Shown here piece after piece: positions 7,317 through 20,629 of a stretch of 41,302 nucleotides of DNA. Made by a program: the position numbers and the translations under genes. A model generated the notes under the pieces. It saw nothing but the letters and a program-made list of their open reading frames with translations, ran no database searches and had not been told where the DNA came from. Numbering within the stretch: position 1 is the first letter of the stretch; each line of letters starts with the position of its first letter. The stretch is taken from IMG/VR virus record IMGVR_UViG_3300044681_000464, positions 1 through 41,302 of that record. The stretch is one strand, 5' to 3'. This DNA comes from a virus.

Positions 7317-9170
7317 TCAGTAGGTTCCTCCTCCAATCATCTCCATTCCGCCCCTGCCAACATGCTCGCAGGGCGACACGGCAAACATGCCGATGCAATC
7401 CGCGGGATCTTTACCGGCCCCCTTCAAGCCATCCAGCCCAGTATACTCAGCAAGCACATAGGCGAGGTTGGCGCAGCCCTCGGCGATGTAGAGCCGGGGC
7501 TGATTCACCGGCGATATCGGCTCCATCGAATTGTAGGCGAGCAGATCATTCACCGCCCCGATCCGCGCATCCACCGGCAGCTTCGGGGACGGGGTCAGCG
7601 CCATCGGCTCATCCGCCAGATCCTCTCCGGTCTCACCGTCCATCGCAAACAGGTCGATCAGCGTGGTGCCTCCCTCATCACTCAGTGCAGGCGTTCCACC
7701 GGCATTGGGGTCCACCCAGCGCACCATCACCGGCTCCGGCTCCCCCTCAGCCAGCCCCGCCGGTCGCCCAGGCAGCTCCATCTCGATCTCCCGAAACAGC
7801 CGCCGGTATCCGCCAACGCTCCGACCGGCTGACGCGGTCTGCGCCGGTCCAGCCTTCCCATCCGGCTTGTTCCCCGGCAGCACCCACTCGCCGTATCCAC
7901 CGAGGTCGGGAAACTCCCGCACCACCACCGCCCTGCCGTCCTCGTAGACCCTGACCCAGATGCAAAAATAGTTTCGGGCACCGGCTGGATCGACGATCTG
8001 GTAGAGCGTTCCACCCACCGGCACCTTGTCGTCAGGGATCACATGCGCCGTCGCATTAAACCTCGGAAACGCCCTCCCAGCCTGCTCCGTAGCCCAGCCA
8101 TACGCACGGGTCAGGATCGTGGGGATCGGAGCCGTCTCCAGCTTTTGCATCATGGAGTCGTAGGGGTTGTATGGATTGTCCTGTGTCGCGAAAAACACCG
8201 TGTAGACACCGGATCTCCTCCCCTTGATCACCCGAGGCACCTTCCCCTTTTGCCATCCAGGCATCGCCTCGCGCCCCCCTAAAAGGGGCGCGTCCATCCA
8301 CTGCTCAACCACTCCACCGGCAGTGAAATCCCTCCACACCGCAGCCACACCCTCCAGCGGGGTCTGCGTCACCAGCATGATGCCCCTGCGGGTCACCAGC
8401 CGGAACCGGAGCGTCTCCACCCAGCTCTGCGGCACCAGCTCATCACACCAGATCAAATCAATCTCCCTGCCTTCCAGCACCTGATCCGATTGGGTGTAGT
8501 TGAGGAAGTCACACCGGCTCCCGTTGCTCAGGATGAAGCTCCCGTCGGTAAATCCGTTTTTGCGGGAGTAGTTCAGGTATCCCACCCGCCCCTTCCGCGT
8601 CACCTTCAGCTCATTGGGGAGCCAGTTGTAGATCGCCGGTTGCTGCACCGTCACGCTGCTCGAATGCGAGGTGTGACAGCACAACACGTTCAGGTTGGGT
8701 GCCGACACCAACAGCCTGGTGCAGGTCCGCGCAGCCCAGTGCGTTTTCCCCGCACGGTTACCGCCGCTGATCATCAGCTCACTCAAACCATCCCGCGACA
8801 GCACCTCGTCAGCCAGCTTCCAGTGGGGAGGCGTGTATCCGAAATTGTAGGGGTCCGCCCGCTCCGCACGCACCCACCGCTCCCGCTCCGCGAACAGCAC
8901 CTCAAAATCAGGATGATCCTCCGGTATCAACGGCACCACCGGATGCGGAGTCTGTTTTTGCTCCCGCCAGTAACAGGCTCGGCAGGTGGGACTGCAAAAC
9001 TTTTGATCAGAGCGGATCGGGGTGAAGCTGGTCCGGCAACGAGGACAATTTTTTTTGCTGGGTGAACACGTCGCCGCTTCGCCTTCAACCGACTCCTCGA
9101 CCCCCCCCGCCCCCCTTTTTAGTCCAGGCGCACCGGCACCGGCCTCGTTTGACGCGTTTGACGTGCTCAT
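7317..9170 (-). CDS. terL: Terminase large subunit
   Basis: The product has 617 residues. The ATPase part has Walker A 'GGNRAGKT' (residues 136-143) and Walker B 'IDLIWCDE' (acidic pair D243-E244), followed by 'RGIMLVTQTP' coupling motif. The C-terminal nuclease part has 'YQIVDPAGARNYFCIWVRVY' (first metal Asp), 'WVDPNAGG' and a terminal helical region. It packages DNA through the portal and cuts the concatemer. Unusually, residues 42-66 form a Cys cluster ('CPRC', then 'CSPTCRAC') like a treble-clef or zinc-ribbon finger ahead of the ATPase domain, after a Gly/Ala/Glu-rich leader encoded by a long G-run. The ATG overlaps the previous stop (ATGA). Confidence 0.92.
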   Translation of the reverse strand: MSTSNASNEAGAGAPGLKRGAGGVEESVEGEAATCSPSKKNCPRCRTSFTPIRSDQKFCSPTCRACYWREQKQTPHPVVPLIPEDHPDFEVLFAERERWVRAERADPYNFGYTPPHWKLADEVLSRDGLSELMISGGNRAGKTHWAARTCTRLLVSAPNLNVLCCHTSHSSSVTVQQPAIYNWLPNELKVTRKGRVGYLNYSRKNGFTDGSFILSNGSRCDFLNYTQSDQVLEGREIDLIWCDELVPQSWVETLRFRLVTRRGIMLVTQTPLEGVAAVWRDFTAGGVVEQWMDAPLLGGREAMPGWQKGKVPRVIKGRRSGVYTVFFATQDNPYNPYDSMMQKLETAPIPTILTRAYGWATEQAGRAFPRFNATAHVIPDDKVPVGGTLYQIVDPAGARNYFCIWVRVYEDGRAVVVREFPDLGGYGEWVLPGNKPDGKAGPAQTASAGRSVGGYRRLFREIEMELPGRPAGLAEGEPEPVMVRWVDPNAGGTPALSDEGGTTLIDLFAMDGETGEDLADEPMALTPSPKLPVDARIGAVNDLLAYNSMEPISPVNQPRLYIAEGCANLAYVLAEYTGLDGLKGAGKDPADCIGMFAVSPCEHVGRGGMEMIGGGTY

Positions 9171-9688
9171 CTGTCTGTATGCTGCGCTCCGGTGATCCGT
9201 TTCATGAGGTCATCGGCGGTCGTAGATACGTTAAGTGACGCAGTAATGGCGGTCGGTTGGTTCGATACGAGGAGGTGCTTCTCGGTAGAGATCGCAGCAG
9301 CTACGGGTAGTTTCGTAGTCTGCATCTCCACTGCCTCTATCGCTAACCTTCTGGTCAGGAACCAGCTAGCTACCCTCCAATGCTCTCCAATCTGCCTTGC
9401 CTGCTCCTCTGGATCATCCGGCAGCTCGGTAGCCAGTTTCGCTATTGCCCTGCTGTGTGCGCTCCGCAGGGCCTGTAGCGCGTTTGATGGCGAGAGGCTG
9501 ACAATCGCATCCTCTCCATCCTCCGGCCCCGCTATGAGGGCGTAGGCGGCTCCGGCGATCATCTCACCCACCTGAGTTGATTTCGGGGTATCCTTGCCCT
9601 GTTTGCCAGGGTGCTTGGGCTTGGATAGCTTTGGCGCTTTAACCGCACGTCCCGCTCTCCCCTTGTTGGCATCCTTGCTGACCAGCAT
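9167..9688 (-). CDS. Putative terminase small subunit
   Basis: This 173-residue product is the first gene of the late operon and directly precedes the large terminase with an ATGA overlap, the normal place for TerS. The N-terminus is very basic (many Lys, Arg and Pro up to residue 40), fit for DNA contact. The middle is helical ('SNALQALRSAHSRAIAKLAT', 'ARQIGEHWRVASWFLTRRLA'). The C-terminal part is mixed, with a short Thr/Ser/Asn-rich segment. No definite TerS family motif is seen, so the call rests on position, size and charge. The ribosome site AGGAGG is unusually close (2 nt) to the ATG. Confidence 0.55.
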   Translation of the reverse strand: MLVSKDANKGRAGRAVKAPKLSKPKHPGKQGKDTPKSTQVGEMIAGAAYALIAGPEDGEDAIVSLSPSNALQALRSAHSRAIAKLATELPDDPEEQARQIGEHWRVASWFLTRRLAIEAVEMQTTKLPVAAAISTEKHLLVSNQPTAITASLNVSTTADDLMKRITGAQHTDR

Positions 9689-9753: not shown

Positions 9754-9779
9754 TGGGACACCCTTTAGGGGGTGTCCCA
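9754..9779. promoter_or_regulatory. Perfect 10-bp hairpin in the late leader
   Basis: TGGGACACCC (9754-9763) and GGGTGTCCCA (9770-9779) pair perfectly around a 6-nt loop. In the minus transcript it is followed by an AU-rich stretch but no true U-tract, so it is not a clear terminator. It sits between the candidate late promoter and the first late gene, where an antitermination or attenuation signal, or a processing site, would fit. The rest of the 260-nt gap holds only the promoter, the inverted repeats and the upstream terminator. Confidence 0.5.
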
Positions 9780-9836: not shown

Positions 9837-9867
9837 ATACTAATCACCCCTCACGTCATACTGTCAA
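9837..9867 (-). promoter_or_regulatory. Candidate late promoter
   Basis: On the minus strand a perfect -35 TTGACA (9867-9862) and a fair -10 TAGTAT (9842-9837) are separated by 19 nt, slightly long. It points at the TerS-like gene 143 nt downstream and lies just past the early terminator. An inverted repeat (9856-9876) overlaps the -35 box. No other strong promoter for the head genes is visible. Confidence 0.5.
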
Positions 9868-9876
9868 GCAGTATGA
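9856..9876. promoter_or_regulatory. Operator-like inverted repeat over the late -35 box
   Basis: TCATACTG (9856-9863) and CAGTATGA (9869-9876) are perfect inverted arms with a 5-nt spacer; with the preceding G, the left arm contains GTCATAC (9855-9861). TTGACA of the candidate late promoter lies in the spacer and one arm, so a bound protein would block RNA polymerase. The same GTCATAC core occurs in other control regions of this genome. Confidence 0.5.
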
Positions 9877-9889
9877 TCCCCTGGAATGC

Positions 9890-9926
9890 AAAAAACCCCC
9901 GCCAGCAGGCATATACTGGCAGGGGG
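9890..9926 (-). terminator. Rho-independent terminator ending the 9949-11177 cassette
   Basis: In the minus transcript a CCCCC/GGGGG plus GCCAG/CTGGC stem (with one bulged base) is followed at once by six Us (9895-9890). It begins 22 nt after the stop of the last gene of the cassette and separates it from the late operon. Confidence 0.85.
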
Positions 9927-9948: not shown

Positions 9949-10230
9949 TCAGACCTCGTAGCGGTCCTCTAGGCACCGATAGACGAGGTCATCCGGCACC
10001 AGTGTGGCTAGCGTATCCACGTCCCTGCGGTCTAGGGTGTGGATGTCGACTGTGCCCTGCCGGTCGTCGGTCAGGACGATCACGTCCTCACCCACGCAGC
10101 GGTAGGTGAGGACATGGCGTGGATACAGCTTTTGCAGGGCGAGTTTCCGCCGTATCCGGCGGACGGCGGCTTGGTAGCTGGCGACCAGCTTGTCCGCAGG
10201 GCTTTGGGGTGGATCAAATGTAACTGTCAT
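9949..10230 (-). CDS. Hypothetical protein, last gene of the isolated cassette
   Basis: This 93-residue product has no recognised family. The N-terminal half is basic and helical ('KLVASYQAAVRRIRRKLALQ'). The second half has beta-strand and acidic character ('CVGEDVIVLTDDRQGTVDIH') and ends with an acidic segment 'DDLVYRCLEDRYEV'. It is the last of four small genes and is followed by a strong terminator. A 75-nt gap separates it from the preceding gene, longer than the other junctions, and no clear ribosome site is seen before ATG 10230. Function unknown; a host-interaction or regulatory role would fit such a cassette. Confidence 0.65.
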   Translation of the reverse strand: MTVTFDPPQSPADKLVASYQAAVRRIRRKLALQKLYPRHVLTYRCVGEDVIVLTDDRQGTVDIHTLDRRDVDTLATLVPDDLVYRCLEDRYEV

Positions 10231-10305
10231 GTGTGTAGTCTAGTTGGGCCGGTAGGACAAATAGTGTCTAAGGCCCCGTAAATCATATACGACAATTGGA
10301 CCACA

Positions 10306-10590
10306 TTAATCCTGAGCGGTCACGTCAGGAAACGGCGTCGTGTAATTGGGGAAGGACGGGTTGGCGTAGTGCCGGTCAGCGGCGGCGTTATATGCCGCCT
10401 TCCATTGATCATCGCCCTCACGGGCGAGCCTGAGCAGCATCTGGTCGCGCGTGTTACCGGCTGACCAGACCGCGAAATCGTCGGCGAACTGATAATACCA
10501 GTCGTGCCGGTTGAGTGCCTCCACAAACTCCTCAAGGGTGGTGGGGGTGTTGGTGTAGCCCAAGCGCGGGCGGATGATACCAAAGCTCAT
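10306..10590 (-). CDS. Hypothetical protein of the isolated cassette
   Basis: The product has 94 residues and begins at ATG 10590, overlapping the preceding stop as ATGA. It is rich in aromatic and acidic residues: 'TLEEFVEALNRHDWYYQFAD', 'DDFAVWSAGNTRDQMLLRLA', then a His/Tyr/Asn-rich segment and an acidic tail. The middle looks helical. I recognise no family. It is co-transcribed with the neighbouring small genes and probably acts early or in the lysogen, given the regulated promoter upstream. Confidence 0.68.
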   Translation of the reverse strand: MSFGIIRPRLGYTNTPTTLEEFVEALNRHDWYYQFADDFAVWSAGNTRDQMLLRLAREGDDQWKAAYNAAADRHYANPSFPNYTTPFPDVTAQD

Positions 10591-10886
10591 AGGGACACCT
10601 CCAGACGCTCATGGAGGCGCAGCACCTCGCGGTCAATGGCCTCCACCTGCTGACGCGTGGTAGCGGCTTTGACAGCCTCCTCGCGCCATGCGTTGATCTC
10701 GTTGATCCGGTTGATGCGGAAGCTGATGGTCGTCAGCGTGTCCCATTCGGCGTTGGACACATCGTCGGTGTCCCGCGTTTGGTTAAGCTGGAGCAGCTCC
10801 AGCATGATCTCCGCATGAGCGGTGAGGAAGTCCGGCCCCATCATTTCGCGGAGCGTTTCAATGTTCGTGTTGTTGTTTACTCTCAT
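10587..10886 (-). CDS. Hypothetical helical protein of the isolated cassette
   Basis: This 99-residue product starts at ATG 10886 with AGGA 5 nt upstream. Nearly the whole sequence looks helical and charged ('ETLREMMGPDFLTAHAEIML', 'WREEAVKAATTRQQVEAIDR', 'EVLRLHERLEVSL'), and the last 40 residues could form a coiled coil. It overlaps the next gene by 4 nt and follows the first cassette gene by 6 nt. No catalytic motif or known family is seen. A small dimeric accessory or inhibitor protein would suit its size. Confidence 0.68.
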   Translation of the reverse strand: MRVNNNTNIETLREMMGPDFLTAHAEIMLELLQLNQTRDTDDVSNAEWDTLTTISFRINRINEINAWREEAVKAATTRQQVEAIDREVLRLHERLEVSL

Positions 10887-10892
10887 AAAATC

Positions 10893-11177
10893 CTAGCGTT
10901 GAATTTTTGCGGCGATGCTGACGTCGTTCAGGCAGATACCCATGCTCTCATGGTAGTCGTACCAGACTGCCCATGCTCCCTCGGTTGTTTCGACGATCAT
11001 GACCCACCACTGAGTTCCACCCTTGTCCTCCGCGAGTAGTTTGCCGTCCCCGTGTTGGTTGACCACGCGGTCGAATAGCCCGTCGTGTAGTTGGTCCACG
11101 ATCTCTCGGGGGAGGGGGATCGCGATGTAGGTGTGGATTCCGTGTTTGATCAGTTGTTTGGGAGATTCAATGTTCAT
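10893..11177 (-). CDS. Hypothetical protein, first gene of the isolated cassette
   Basis: The 94-residue product has a mixed alpha/beta pattern: 'IHTYIAIPLPREIVDQLHDG' then 'QWWVMIVETTEGAWAVWYDY'. The alternating hydrophobic and aromatic residues in the second half suggest a beta-sheet. No family is recognised. It has no Shine-Dalgarno sequence and lies only about 10 nt after the -10 box of a candidate promoter, so its mRNA may have almost no leader. It heads a four-gene unit separated by terminators from both the replication genes and the late genes. Confidence 0.68.
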   Translation of the reverse strand: MNIESPKQLIKHGIHTYIAIPLPREIVDQLHDGLFDRVVNQHGDGKLLAEDKGGTQWWVMIVETTEGAWAVWYDYHESMGICLNDVSIAAKIQR

Positions 11178-11186
11178 TGTGGGGAA

Positions 11187-11214
11187 AGTGTATCACGGGT
11201 GTAATACAAGGCAA
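11187..11214 (-). promoter_or_regulatory. Candidate promoter of the four-gene cassette
   Basis: On the minus strand TTGCCT (11214-11209) and TACACT (11192-11187) are spaced by 16 nt, each matching the sigma-70 consensus at 4 of 6 positions. The -35 box lies in the spacer of the inverted repeat at 11201-11224. The predicted start of transcription is within a few bases of the ATG at 11177. Confidence 0.4.
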
Positions 11215-11224
11215 GGTGTATTAC
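11201..11224. promoter_or_regulatory. Operator-like inverted repeat GTAATACA-N8-TGTATTAC
   Basis: The two 8-nt arms (11201-11208 and 11217-11224) are perfect inverted copies. A related half-site, GTATCAC (11190-11196, complement GTGATAC), lies 4 nt further downstream over the -10 region. GTAATACA also occurs at 18950-18957 in the divergent RHH promoter region. A repressor bound here would cover the candidate -35 and -10 boxes. Confidence 0.5.
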
Positions 11225-11230
11225 GCTCAT

Positions 11231-11264
11231 ACACAAAGCCCCGCAACCTTTTGGGTTGCAGGGC
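11231..11264 (-). terminator. Terminator after the primase-helicase gene
   Basis: In the minus transcript GCCCTGCAACC pairs with GGTTGCGGGGC (one mismatch) around a 5-nt loop, followed by UUUGUGU. The U-tract is weak but the stem is strong, and it lies 33 nt beyond the stop of the primase-helicase gene, just before the next promoter. Confidence 0.6.
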
Positions 11265-17783: not shown

Positions 17784-18555
17784 CGCCGCCTCCCTCCATC
17801 TGCGCGATCTGGCTGGCGACCCATTTGGCGACTGCCGCACGCGTTTTCTCTGCGTTGTTGAGCACCCGCTCGCAGCGGGCGTCGGACAGGTCGGCAATGG
17901 TGCCATCCACGGGCACCCAGTTTTTGCCGCGCAGCCATGGGAGGAACTCGCTGACGATGTCGTCGAACTCCGAGGCGACCCTGTCCTGCACCGTCTCGCG
18001 CACTACCACCGGCTCCGCGGTCGGTGTCTGCTCTGGCAGCAGCGACTCCGGTGTCACCTCCATTTTCACGGTCTCCACCGGCACCACCTCGTCATCCCCG
18101 TCGGGCGCATCGCCGCACAGGATCTCCGGTGCCAGCATGAGCACGGCGTTTGAGATGCAACGTGCCCGCAGCATGTTCGCGATTTGGGTTTTCCACGCCC
18201 CCTTCCCGACCAGCCCCTGAGCCTGCGCCATTTCGGCGGTGAATGTGTAGGTCAGCTCGTTGCCGTCGGGGTCAACGAGGTGCAGGGTCGCCGCCTTCCC
18301 GTCCTCGCCGTCCGCCAGCCATTTGTGCCTGCCTCCCATTTTCCGAAAGTTGGCAAGGATGGCGTGCGCTCGCATCAAAGGCTTGCCCTGAAGGATGTGG
18401 AACGTCCTCATGAGCCAGTGGAGGGTTTTTCCCTCCTGCATCGCTATGACCGCGAGCAGCTCGCCCTGTTTCCTGTTGCTACAGCCAAATACCCCGCTAC
18501 CGGCAATGATTTCGCCGAGGGTGGTGATGGCTGTCTCAGTGTCTCGAAAGTTCAT
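17773..18555 (-). CDS. recT: RecT-family single-strand annealing protein
   Basis: The 260-residue product has the RecT core: 'LGEIIAGSGVFGCSNRKQGE', 'LLAVIAMQEGKTLHWLMRTF', 'ILQGKPLMRAHAILANFRKM', and a later 'MLRARCISNAVLMLAPEILC'. These match the RecT order of substrate-scanning helices, 'i.ING.p.l..da..al' and 'm...Ra...a.r...P....G'. It anneals complementary strands during phage recombination or replication. The C-terminal third (acidic, Pro/Glu-rich) is probably flexible. ATG 18555 is used, but TTG 18558 one codon earlier is also in reach of AGGA. It pairs with the adjacent exonuclease. Confidence 0.85.
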   Translation of the reverse strand: MNFRDTETAITTLGEIIAGSGVFGCSNRKQGELLAVIAMQEGKTLHWLMRTFHILQGKPLMRAHAILANFRKMGGRHKWLADGEDGKAATLHLVDPDGNELTYTFTAEMAQAQGLVGKGAWKTQIANMLRARCISNAVLMLAPEILCGDAPDGDDEVVPVETVKMEVTPESLLPEQTPTAEPVVVRETVQDRVASEFDDIVSEFLPWLRGKNWVPVDGTIADLSDARCERVLNNAEKTRAAVAKWVASQIAQMEGGGDGR

Positions 18556-18733
18556 CAATTTTGTTCCTGTTGTATCTCCATGTTCTCGGCCCGATCTGGT
18601 AGCACGGCAGTGATCCGTTCCCCGCTAGACGCCGCACCTGAGCCGGCGAGATGCGGAGGAGGTCAGCGACCTCACGGGTGGTGAGCCATTCGTCAGTTTC
18701 CCTCGATTTGTGCTCGGATGGTTTCGGTTCCAT
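18536..18733 (-). CDS. Excisionase-like HTH protein
   Basis: This 65-residue product contains 'WLTTREVADLLRISPAQVRR' (helix-turn-helix) followed by 'LPCYQIGPRTWRYNRNKIDE' (wing and last helix). This is the pattern of the MerR-like excisionase/HTH_17 family. It could be the recombination directionality factor for the integrase at 19446-20558, or an early regulator. It overlaps the RHH gene upstream by 41 nt, which is long, and RecT downstream by 20 nt. No clear ribosome site is seen, and the first 12 residues may not be part of the fold. Confidence 0.75.
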   Translation of the reverse strand: MEPKPSEHKSRETDEWLTTREVADLLRISPAQVRRLAGNGSLPCYQIGPRTWRYNRNKIDELSRH

Positions 18734-18881
18734 ATCGTTTGAGGTATTTCCATTTGATCGCGTTCACGATTGCCTTCGTGATGGTTTTATTCTCCAGCTC
18801 CACGTATCGCTGGAGCAGCTCATAGACGCCTGGGTGAGCATCAAAACTCACACAAACCAGTTTTCGTTTTCGCTCGGTCAT
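18693..18881 (-). CDS. RHH DNA-binding protein (Arc/MetJ-like), first early gene
   Basis: The product from ATG 18881 has 62 residues: 'KLVCVSFDAHPGVYELLQRY' (beta-strand then first helix) and 'NKTITKAIVNAIKWKYLKRY' (second helix). This is a ribbon-helix-helix layout, in which the paired strands 'KLVCVSFD' would read the operator. Longer starts at 18905 and 18932 are in frame, but none has a ribosome site. It is the first gene of the leftward early operon and is divergent from a second RHH gene. By analogy with phage P22 Arc and Mnt, both may act on the operators between them. Fold confidence is moderate. Confidence 0.65.
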   Translation of the reverse strand: MTERKRKLVCVSFDAHPGVYELLQRYVELENKTITKAIVNAIKWKYLKRYGTETIRAQIEGN

Positions 18882-18892
18882 GATGCGTGTCT

Positions 18893-18907
18893 GTATGACG
18901 GTCATAC
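18893..18907. promoter_or_regulatory. Operator-like palindrome GTATGAC-G-GTCATAC
   Basis: A perfect 7-bp inverted repeat around one central base. It lies in the 113-nt region between two divergent RHH genes, 12 nt upstream of the leftward one. Related half-sites follow at 18917-18924 (GCAATACA) and 18950-18957 (GTAATACA), in the same orientation as the right arm. These probably bind the RHH proteins. Confidence 0.6.
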
Positions 18908-18959
18908 GGCGTGAGTGCAATACATTTCTCATTAGTGGTAGGGGTTGTCGTAATACAAA

Positions 18960-18987
18960 TTGCCACTTGGGCCATATCTGGTATGGT
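18960..18987 (+). promoter_or_regulatory. Candidate promoter of the rightward RHH gene
   Basis: TTGCCA (18960-18965) and TATGGT (18982-18987) are spaced by 16 nt, with an extended -10 TG one base before the -10. The ATG at 18995 lies 7 nt after the -10, so the transcript would be leaderless or nearly so, which fits the absence of a ribosome site. GTAATACA (18950-18957) lies just upstream of the -35 box. Confidence 0.5.
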
Positions 18988-18994
18988 TTTTTGC

Positions 18995-19255
18995 ATGAAC
19001 AAAAAAAGTGAGAGTCGGAAGCTGGTGACGTTTCAGGTGCCCGCCCATTTGGTGGATCTGTTCGACGTCGCCGTCACCGCGACAGGGAAGTCCACAACCA
19101 CCATCATCACCGACTGTCTGGAGATTGCGATGCGGTCGGTGGTGGAGGGGTATTTGGAGGAGCAGGAGGCAGCGCGGAAACAATTTGTGGGCCTGCTGGA
19201 GGAGTCCGGCCTGCCGAAACTTGCCGGAAAACCACGCGTCAAAAAAACGTCATAA
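18995..19255 (+). CDS. RHH (CopG/Arc-like) repressor candidate
   Basis: This 86-residue product begins at ATG 18995: 'ESRKLVTFQVPAHLVDLFDV' (strand and first helix) and 'GKSTTTIITDCLEIAMRSVV' (second helix), then an acidic helix and a basic tail 'GKPRVKKTS'. The first half fits the ribbon-helix-helix fold. It is the only plus-strand gene apart from the integrase and is divergent from the early operon, the usual place of a lysogeny repressor. No lambda-type repressor exists in this window, so this is the best candidate. A terminator follows. The start has no Shine-Dalgarno sequence, fitting a leaderless mRNA. Confidence 0.72.
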   Translation: MNKKSESRKLVTFQVPAHLVDLFDVAVTATGKSTTTIITDCLEIAMRSVVEGYLEEQEAARKQFVGLLEESGLPKLAGKPRVKKTS

Positions 19256-19257
19256 CG

Positions 19258-19276
19258 CGGGGAAAACCCCGTTTTT
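19258..19276 (+). terminator. Rho-independent terminator after the RHH gene
   Basis: CGGGG (19258-19262) and CCCCG (19267-19271) form a 5-bp GC stem with an AAAA loop, followed by TTTTT. It begins 3 nt after the stop codon and isolates the RHH gene from the integrase. Confidence 0.8.
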
Positions 19277-19386
19277 ATTGGCTTTTTGAGGCACTAGGGT
19301 AGCTCAAACAGAGTTGTTCATGGCAGGATTGAATCCCAGCAAATCCGCAGTTTCCTCAGCGTTTTCACCTTTTTTGTATTGCAGTT

Positions 19387-19438
19387 GTCATACTATGTGA
19401 CACTTTGTGACCCCTAAAGCGTCATAATTACGTCACAA
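19387..19438. promoter_or_regulatory. Repeat-rich control region upstream of integrase
   Basis: GTCATAC occurs at 19387-19393, and the near copy GTCATAA at 19421-19427. TTGTGAC (19405-19411) and GTCACAA (19432-19438) are perfect inverted copies around a possible -10 CATAAT (19423-19428). The sites could be for the RHH repressor or arm-type sites for the integrase. The 190-nt region from 19256 contains no gene, and no attachment core could be identified by eye. Confidence 0.4.
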
Positions 19439-19445
19439 CAAACCG

Positions 19446-20558
19446 ATGAAAATCCGCACCATCACCGTCAAATCCCACACCTACTACCAGCTCGACCTCG
19501 GGATGCACCGAGGCAAGCGCATCCGGCGGAACTTCACCTCCGAGGCGGATGCCAAAGCCGCTCTCCGGCGCGAGGAAAAACGCCGGAGGAATCAGGGTGA
19601 CATGACCGCATCGCTGCCAGCCCGCGTCATGCTGGAGCTGGTGGAATGCCATGAGAGGGCACAGCGCCTCGGGATCACCCTCTCCGGCCTCCTAGATGCC
19701 CATGAGAGCGGTCGTATGGTGAGGGGGGCTGTGACGGGAGGGGTTACGATCAACGACGCCGTCAGGGAGACGATAGCGGCGAAGGAAAGCGAGGGACGCG
19801 CCCATCATTACCTCCGCAACTACCGTCCGGTCCTCGACCGGTTTGCGAGGGCGTTCGACGGTCGTCTGATCACCGAGGTCACCCACACCGAGATCGCCAA
19901 CTGGCTGTCGGTTGTCGGCGGGAAGGACGGCGGGCGAACCATTCGGGGCCGGATCAGCACCGTGTTCAGCACGGCGATGACGGAGGGCTGGATCGCCAAC
20001 AACCCAATCAGCCGCCTCCCTAAAATCAGGACCGTGAGCGAGGCCCCAACCATCCTCACCCCCATGCAATGGGCGCGGGTGCTGGTCTACACCCGAAAAC
20101 ATGAGATCCGGCACCTGCCGTGGGTCATCCTCGCCGGGATGGAGGGGGTCCGCCCGTTCGAGGCGGACCAGATCCAGGCGGAGGACATTGACTTGGAGCA
20201 CGGTCTGCTGACGATTAAAGGGGCCTACAGCAAGACGAGGAGGCACAGGGTGATTGAGTTGTCCCCCAGCACAGTGCGATGGCTCCAGTGGGCCTTTAAA
20301 AACGGCGGAGAGCTGGGTGCCTCATTCAGGTCACGGGGCAACTTCCTGCGCCGGTGCGCTCGCCGCGCCCTCCACCTCAAATCATGGCCTACCGACGTCC
20401 TTCGCCACACCGCAGCCAGCGTGATGTGCGCCATCTGGAAGGACGCACCCAAGGTTGCCCTGCACCTCGGCAACTCGGTGCCGGTCATCATGAGGCACTA
20501 CAACAATTCCATGCCTGCGCGAATAGCCGAGCGGTATTTTCACCACCTGCCCATGTAG
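19446..20558 (+). CDS. int: Tyrosine-recombinase integrase
   Basis: The 370-residue product has an N-terminal arm-type DNA-binding region (basic, residues 1-60), a core-binding SAM-like domain (about 100-190) and a catalytic domain. Catalytic residues appear as R236 ('GMEGVRPFEAD'), K263 ('YSKTRRHR'), R320 in 'DVLRHT', and Y352 in 'RHYNN'. Two usual histidines differ: Asp317 stands where 'H.LR' is normal, and Asn343 in 'LGNS' replaces the H of 'LGHS'. It would insert the phage into the host chromosome. It ends at a terminator, tail to tail with the late operon. No ribosome site is seen. Confidence 0.9.
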   Translation: MKIRTITVKSHTYYQLDLGMHRGKRIRRNFTSEADAKAALRREEKRRRNQGDMTASLPARVMLELVECHERAQRLGITLSGLLDAHESGRMVRGAVTGGVTINDAVRETIAAKESEGRAHHYLRNYRPVLDRFARAFDGRLITEVTHTEIANWLSVVGGKDGGRTIRGRISTVFSTAMTEGWIANNPISRLPKIRTVSEAPTILTPMQWARVLVYTRKHEIRHLPWVILAGMEGVRPFEADQIQAEDIDLEHGLLTIKGAYSKTRRHRVIELSPSTVRWLQWAFKNGGELGASFRSRGNFLRRCARRALHLKSWPTDVLRHTAASVMCAIWKDAPKVALHLGNSVPVIMRHYNNSMPARIAERYFHHLPM

Positions 20559-20559
20559 C

Positions 20560-20583
20560 AAAAGCCCACCCCCATGGGGTGGG
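20560..20583 (-). terminator. Terminator of the late operon
   Basis: In the minus transcript CCCACCCC pairs perfectly with GGGGTGGG around a 3-nt loop, followed by CUUUUGC. It lies 47 nt past the last late gene, at the convergence point with the integrase. The U-tract is short. Confidence 0.55.
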
Positions 20584-20600
20584 TAATGCCCGCCTGCACG

Positions 20601-20629
20601 CACCACCGGATGCCGGTGGTGTTTTTGTT
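20601..20629 (+). terminator. Terminator of the integrase transcript
   Basis: CACCACCGG (20601-20609) and CCGGTGGTG (20613-20621) form a perfect 9-bp stem with a 3-nt loop, followed by TTTTTGTTTT. It lies 43 nt after the integrase stop and just before the end of the convergent late operon. Confidence 0.85.

Follow-up and report, generated by a model that had tools for sequence, protein, structure and literature searches.

In this analysis we found that the heptamer GT(A/C)ATAC (GTMATAC) is probably the operator half-site of a phage's own immunity repressor, most likely the predicted ribbon-helix-helix (RHH) protein RHH2, in a divergent two-regulator switch whose operator would have been copied to a cassette of small genes and probably to the late promoter. 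The window, that is, the whole stretch of DNA analysed, is a virus record of 41,302 bases with a podovirus-like gene order composed of terminase, portal, a very long internal protein, a RecT/exonuclease/primase operon and a tyrosine integrase (Table 1). RHH2 dimers would bind pairs of the half-site lying over or next to the RHH1 and RHH2 promoters. The RHH1 promoter would be the head of the lytic early operon, including an excisionase-like gene, RHH1 would be the opposing, Cro-like regulator, and RHH2 would keep the virus dormant. The same operator would also stand at the cassette promoter and probably at the late promoter, with its half-sites bracketing the -35. We infer binding, repression rather than activation, the identity of the binder and the control of the cassette and late genes from the positions and enrichment of the motif, weak RHH-like models, the conserved architecture of the gene pair, and covariation of the operator with the RHH2-side protein.

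Table 1. Genes, predicted control sites and terminators of the window that bear on the proposed switch
Feature	Position	Strand	Remarks
Large terminase	7317-9170	-	PHROG_2
First gene of late operon, probably small terminase	9167-9688	-	assigned by position
Inverted repeat GTCATACTGTCAAGCAGTATGAT upstream of late genes	9855-9877	.	contains TCATACTG-N5-CAGTATGA (9856-9876)
Terminator closing cassette	9896-9925	-	just before late promoter
Cassette of four small genes	9949-11177	-	93-99 aa; own promoter region and terminator
Variant half-site GTATCAC	11190-11196	.	in cassette promoter
Predicted operator palindrome GTAATACA-N8-TGTATTAC	11201-11224	.	upstream of cassette; 8-bp perfect arms
Variant half-site CTCATAC	11226-11232		in cassette promoter
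Terminator closing early operon	11238-11264	-	just before cassette promoter
HTH_17/excisionase-like gene	18536-18733	-	directly after RHH1; Pfam PF12728 2e-11; TIGR01764 above cut-off
RHH1 (62 aa)	18693-18881	-	putative RHH protein; first gene of leftward early operon; counterpart of relatives' D genes
Predicted operator pair GTATGAC-G-GTCATAC	18893-18907	.	adjoins RHH1 start; same place as relatives' type-specific repeats
Variant half-site GCAATAC	18917-18923	+	
Half-site GTAATAC	18950-18956	+	just 5' of RHH2 promoter -35 (directly before TTGCCA)
RHH2 promoter TTGCCA-N16-TATGGT	18960-18987	+	9/12 consensus; extended TG
RHH2 (86 aa)	18995-19255	+	putative RHH protein; proposed immunity repressor; counterpart of rep genes; strand KLVTFQVP
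Terminator after RHH2	19257-19272	+	
GTATTGC-N4-GTCATAC upstream of integrase	19376-19393	.	operator or integrase arm site
Tyrosine integrase	19446-20558	+	PHROG_1 3e-24
Terminator of converging integrase/late ends	20565-20622		

GTMATAC has nine exact matches in the 41.3-kb window, against a mean of 3.85 in shuffled sequence (1 of 100 shuffles reached nine). Seven of them lie in the heads of four transcription units, namely the head shared by the RHH1 early operon and RHH2 (18882-18994) and those of the integrase, the cassette and the late genes. The other two (37840 and 37897) are in one coding sequence, and the remaining 1294 bp of noncoding DNA outside the four heads has none. In noncoding DNA 0.37 copies were expected, and none of 2000 shuffles had as many as seven. 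The earlier note on this DNA had taken the motif for a mark of control regions; it is indeed rarer in coding sequence (two copies against seven noncoding), and all the sequences listed there were found where they had been placed. Variants beyond that list are GTATTGC at 19376, GTATCAC at 11190 and CTCATAC at 11226. The geometry of the half-sites differs by site: they point inward, 9-10 bp apart, at the cassette and late heads, and outward at RHH1 and the integrase, 1 bp and 4 bp apart, respectively.

Because the motif had been chosen after the sequence was read, it was also set in competition with other degenerate 7-mers. When every 7-mer with one two-fold degenerate position could compete across the whole of the noncoding DNA, roughly one shuffle in two reached seven, so the counts by themselves give moderate support, not proof, and outside evidence is needed. 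With the competition limited to the four unit heads and the motif present in all four, 1 of 400 shuffles reached seven. A competing motif, GTCGTA(A/T), also has seven noncoding matches, but it is common in coding sequence too and was dropped. For the cassette, late and integrase heads the motif could be taken as fixed independently by a group of related phages (the T·S phages, see below) and scored afresh; four copies were found against 0.16 expected, a number reached in none of 20,000 shuffles. Singly, P was 0.0009 for the cassette (two half-sites), 0.024 for the integrase and 0.075 for the late head. The result of the free search favours the view that an AT-rich 7-mer had by chance been picked by eye from control regions, but the T·S phages independently have both variants at matching positions, and the copies are arranged palindromically, which makes such an origin very improbable.

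The sequences GCAATACA and GTAATACA are present between the two RHH genes, at 18917 and 18950, respectively. The end of the -10 of the RHH2 promoter is separated from the ATG by 7 nt, which makes a leaderless RHH2 mRNA probable; in relatives, a TTGC..N16-17..TACTRR arrangement was read by eye immediately 5' of the ATG. This promoter was found by the same scan that located the terminators; the other promoters were read by eye, and all promoters are consensus-based. Pfam gave no family match for RHH1 or RHH2. None of the window proteins scanned was recognised as an HTH repressor like CI. In Foldseek searches, the top match of RHH1 was P22 Arc (1bdv) and most of its matches were RHH proteins, while RHH2 matched CopG (1b01) best and then ParD, Arc and AmrZ; each match had E > 0.5, and both models, in which the helix-helix topology is seen, are of low confidence (pLDDT 62 and 68, respectively). 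Weak as they are, these models suggest that RHH1 and RHH2 are RHH proteins. By hhalign, RHH2 aligned in register with the profile of the relatives' rep proteins, not significantly (E = 0.04), and in comparisons of RHH1 and RHH2 with the relatives' proteins the expected pairings were preferred, again without significance (E = 0.04-0.05).

Single-protein scans with the terminase, primase, integrase, RHH1 and RHH2 found no close relative and no phage nearer in the RHH module. A set of relatives was defined by alignment with the terminase of phage C75C1, which gave 80 loci. The nearest in the backbone, G001 and G005, have 55-58% terminase identity and are collinear with the window; a search of them for RHH1, RHH2, the integrase and the cassette detected no counterparts. 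In all 15 integrase-bearing relatives of the terminase set (G016-G019 and eleven others), a pair of divergently oriented RHH genes separates the early operon from the integrase. Searching with the D protein, which is placed and oriented like RHH1, gave 34 loci, and each has a divergent RHH partner, rep. These two sets overlap and partly contain the same phages, and many of the 34 loci are near-copies, the independent lineages numbering about 8-10. D and rep are paralogues (hhalign 98%), and the D proteins match RHH_3/RHH_5 below the cut-off. A small HTH-like gene directly follows D in most of the relatives sampled, as the excisionase-like gene follows RHH1. Of the features of this module, the window has the divergent RHH genes placed between early operon and integrase, an HTH/excisionase-like gene after the leftward one, and half-site repeats near both start codons (18893-18923 and 18950), the same as in the T·S group. 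A scan of viral contigs for the palindrome GTMATACA-N8-TGTATKAC gave 33 contigs, about the number expected by chance on a rough estimate. The host is probably a verrucomicrobium, because distant terminase matches are partly in Verrucomicrobia genomes and, among named phages, the integrase is closest to those of Akkermansia phages. Verrucomicrobiota genomes with a related terminase or integrase were too distant, and no RHH pair was found in the stretches read.

The outside evidence comes from the DNA between D and rep. Its core is conserved across immunity types (71-77% between types), whereas the flanks at both start codons are type-specific, with 81-95% identity within types and 33-52% between them. 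The repeat in these flanks varies with the two outward residues of the rep strand, which were placed by alignment and general knowledge of RHH proteins rather than from the structure of a complex. N·S goes with GTGCTAC at 20 loci, S·S with GTAGCAA (flank repeats GTAGCAA/TGCTACC) at three loci and in G034, T·T with TCATAYC at eight loci, and T·S with GTCATAC and GTAATAC at three (L264, L265 and L282). Rep type H is 40% identical to type C and 25% to type A, yet has the N·S residues and the GTGCTAC of type A. On the D side the strand stays S·S while the repeat changes with the rep type. The repeat tracks the rep strand residues, including those of type H, as it should if rep is the protein that reads it. 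In the T·S group, GGTCATAC stands by the D start and GTAATAC by the rep start, in the positions of GTCATAC and GTAATAC in the window. L264 and L282 have three motif matches each against 0.02-0.05 expected; extra copies of GTMATAC in the T·S phages fall within open reading frames and were rejected as operators. The strand residues of RHH2 are T·Q, unlike the T·S of the group that has the same operator.

The earlier note had seen a lysogeny operator in the motif and had named the two RHH proteins for binding tests. Both suggestions are supported: the motif behaves as an operator for a lysogeny regulator of the RHH class would, and the pair of RHH genes on either side of 18893-18957 are suitable candidates. 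The strongest evidence is given by the type-specific repeats of other phages at the same two positions, together with the immunity group that has the same GTCATAC/GTAATAC half-sites. Conservation at the same promoters in relatives, which the note had also raised, is seen in the immunity region and not elsewhere, and in G001 and G005 neither the RHH genes nor the integrase and cassette could be detected. It is improbable that TATTAC/TATGAC belongs to a -10 box of the host or is a site for a host regulator. Some copies do overlap promoter-like sequences, and TACTRR-like -10 boxes were seen by eye inside the relatives' repeats. However, the copies occur in both orientations at varying distances from the starts, and where phages share a backbone, the repeat differs from repressor to repressor but the centre of the region does not. 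These comparisons strongly suggest that GTMATAC acts as the predicted operator at the RHH1 and RHH2 promoters.

Two further observations were made in these regions. Rep types A, B and C (L249-L282, G016-G055) have dissimilar N-terminal domains, but their C-terminal tails (..RPSTETSGGGSST..RYQKGGRRKSTT) are almost alike, as though one tail had received different DNA-binding domains by exchange. The core between the RHH genes of L249-L282, which includes GGGGTGATCACCCC and TTGACA, is retained from one immunity type to the next.

Away from the immunity region, paired inward half-sites bracket a -35-like TTG(C/A)C at both the cassette and the late heads. At the cassette, a leftward TTGCCT (11214-11209) lies between the arms of the palindrome; this -35 and its -10 (TACACT, 11192-11187) were read by eye and are below the threshold of the promoter scan. 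At the late head, a leftward TTGACA (9867-9862) lies between the half-sites. GTMATAC probably controls the cassette and perhaps the late promoter. It is possible, though on balance rather unlikely, that the operator belongs to the immunity region only, where the RHH proteins would regulate their own genes at 18893-18956, and that the cassette, late and integrase copies are due to chance or to other factors. In the relatives type-specific repeat pairs are essentially absent outside the immunity region, and the late site by itself has a P of only 0.075; against this stand the four matches in the other three heads, with the expectation and shuffles given above, and the perfect 8+8 palindrome at the cassette. 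One operator at several separate promoters has statistical support in the window and was not seen in the relatives. Since the type-specific sites of the relatives stay within the immunity region, the support for a genome-wide regulon comes from the window genome only, and such a regulon is possibly peculiar to this phage. The proposal of the earlier note that one repressor could silence the early, cassette, late and integrase promoters together is weakened by the confinement of the relatives' operators, by the repeats upstream of their integrases, which follow the integrase type, and by the late P value.

At the integrase, GTATTGC (19376) pairs with GTCATAC (19387). We consider the chances even that the copies at 19376-19393, and similar repeats, are arm-type sites of attP for the integrase rather than operators. 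Direct repeats just upstream of the relatives' integrases are alike across immunity types and differ with the integrase type, and for this reason look like integrase arm sites; moreover, the window region has TGTGAC repeats that by eye resemble the relatives' AAAGTGTCAC repeats. On the other hand, GTATTGC/GTCATAC at the integrase are identical to the half-sites of the RHH region, and arm sites would account for the integrase copy only. GTAGCA repeats before the integrases of G042, G051 and G044 were considered as operators and rejected, the same repeat being present across immunity types A, B and C. Upstream of the integrase, G016-G055 have tRNA 3'-end-like sequences and short direct repeats, a finding that points to attP sites within tRNA genes and to several integrase modules that can be exchanged.

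The predicted switch partly resembles known systems. In the lambda CI/Cro switch, divergent regulators share operators between their promoters, and immunity groups swap the regulator together with the operator. CopG and Omega are plasmid repressors of the RHH class that act on short repeated half-sites over their own promoters, and the immI region of P22 is secondary to the c2 repressor. CopG is the best structural match of RHH2; however, CopG and Omega serve plasmid copy control without a divergent RHH partner or an integrase. P22 uses the RHH repressors Arc and Mnt for the lysogenic state (PMC10516654). The likeness to immI is in the two small RHH phage repressors, Arc being the top Foldseek match of RHH1, whereas in the window the RHH pair occupies the main junction of early genes and integrase, and the proteins scanned included no recognisable HTH CI-like repressor. 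A further trait of immI is its control of an antirepressor gene next to the main immunity region; among the window genes that were read, no antirepressor was noticed. Divergent regulators, shared operators and immunity groups that swap regulator and operator are also described for TP901-1 CI/MOR (PMC7250872). Unlike in the lambda and TP901-1 switches, both regulators of the window are apparently RHH rather than HTH proteins, and their relatives' counterparts are paralogues. In cluster A mycobacteriophages, one immunity repressor has many binding sites (stoperators) across the genome (PMC9283540, PMC6550527). The regulon of the window, if real, recalls these dispersed sites, but its copies are few and in promoter regions, not asymmetric and spread over the genome, and the protein fold is unrelated. 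Searches of the open-access literature found no account of a divergent RHH pair serving as a phage's main switch, which is weak evidence of absence.

We put forward tentatively, with rather more doubt than confidence, a broader reading in which a paralogous RHH pair replaces CI/Cro as the chief lysogeny switch of a temperate podovirus-like family, probably of Verrucomicrobiota phages. Immunity specificity would depend mainly on two residues in the strand of the RHH2-side protein (N·S, S·S, T·T or T·S), which would amount to a simple recognition code, and in the window phage the operator would have spread to the cassette and late promoters to form a genome-wide regulon. If true, a poorly studied phage group would have a lysogeny switch built of RHH proteins instead of the classical HTH pair. 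Its several natural immunity groups would allow a direct test of whether two RHH residues set the operator that is read and mutual immunity, and operators, and hence regulons, would be predictable from sequence in uncultivated phages.

Other observations concern the cassette and the late region. In the cassette gene at 10587-10886 (- strand), residues 1-62 match PHROG 8786, labelled type I-E anti-CRISPR (E = 1e-4); searches of NCBIfam and the phage collection with the product found nothing. If the PHROG 8786 match is real, an anti-CRISPR-like gene would stand under the operator of the phage repressor. In the large terminase, a Cys-rich segment at the N-terminal end (CPRC..CSPTC) matches HNH/NinG-type PHROGs. 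A perfect 10-bp inverted repeat, TGGGACACCC-N6-GGGTGTCCCA (9754-9779), lies between the candidate -35 of the late promoter and the first late gene, near a leftward promoter-like match; it is possibly a second control site.
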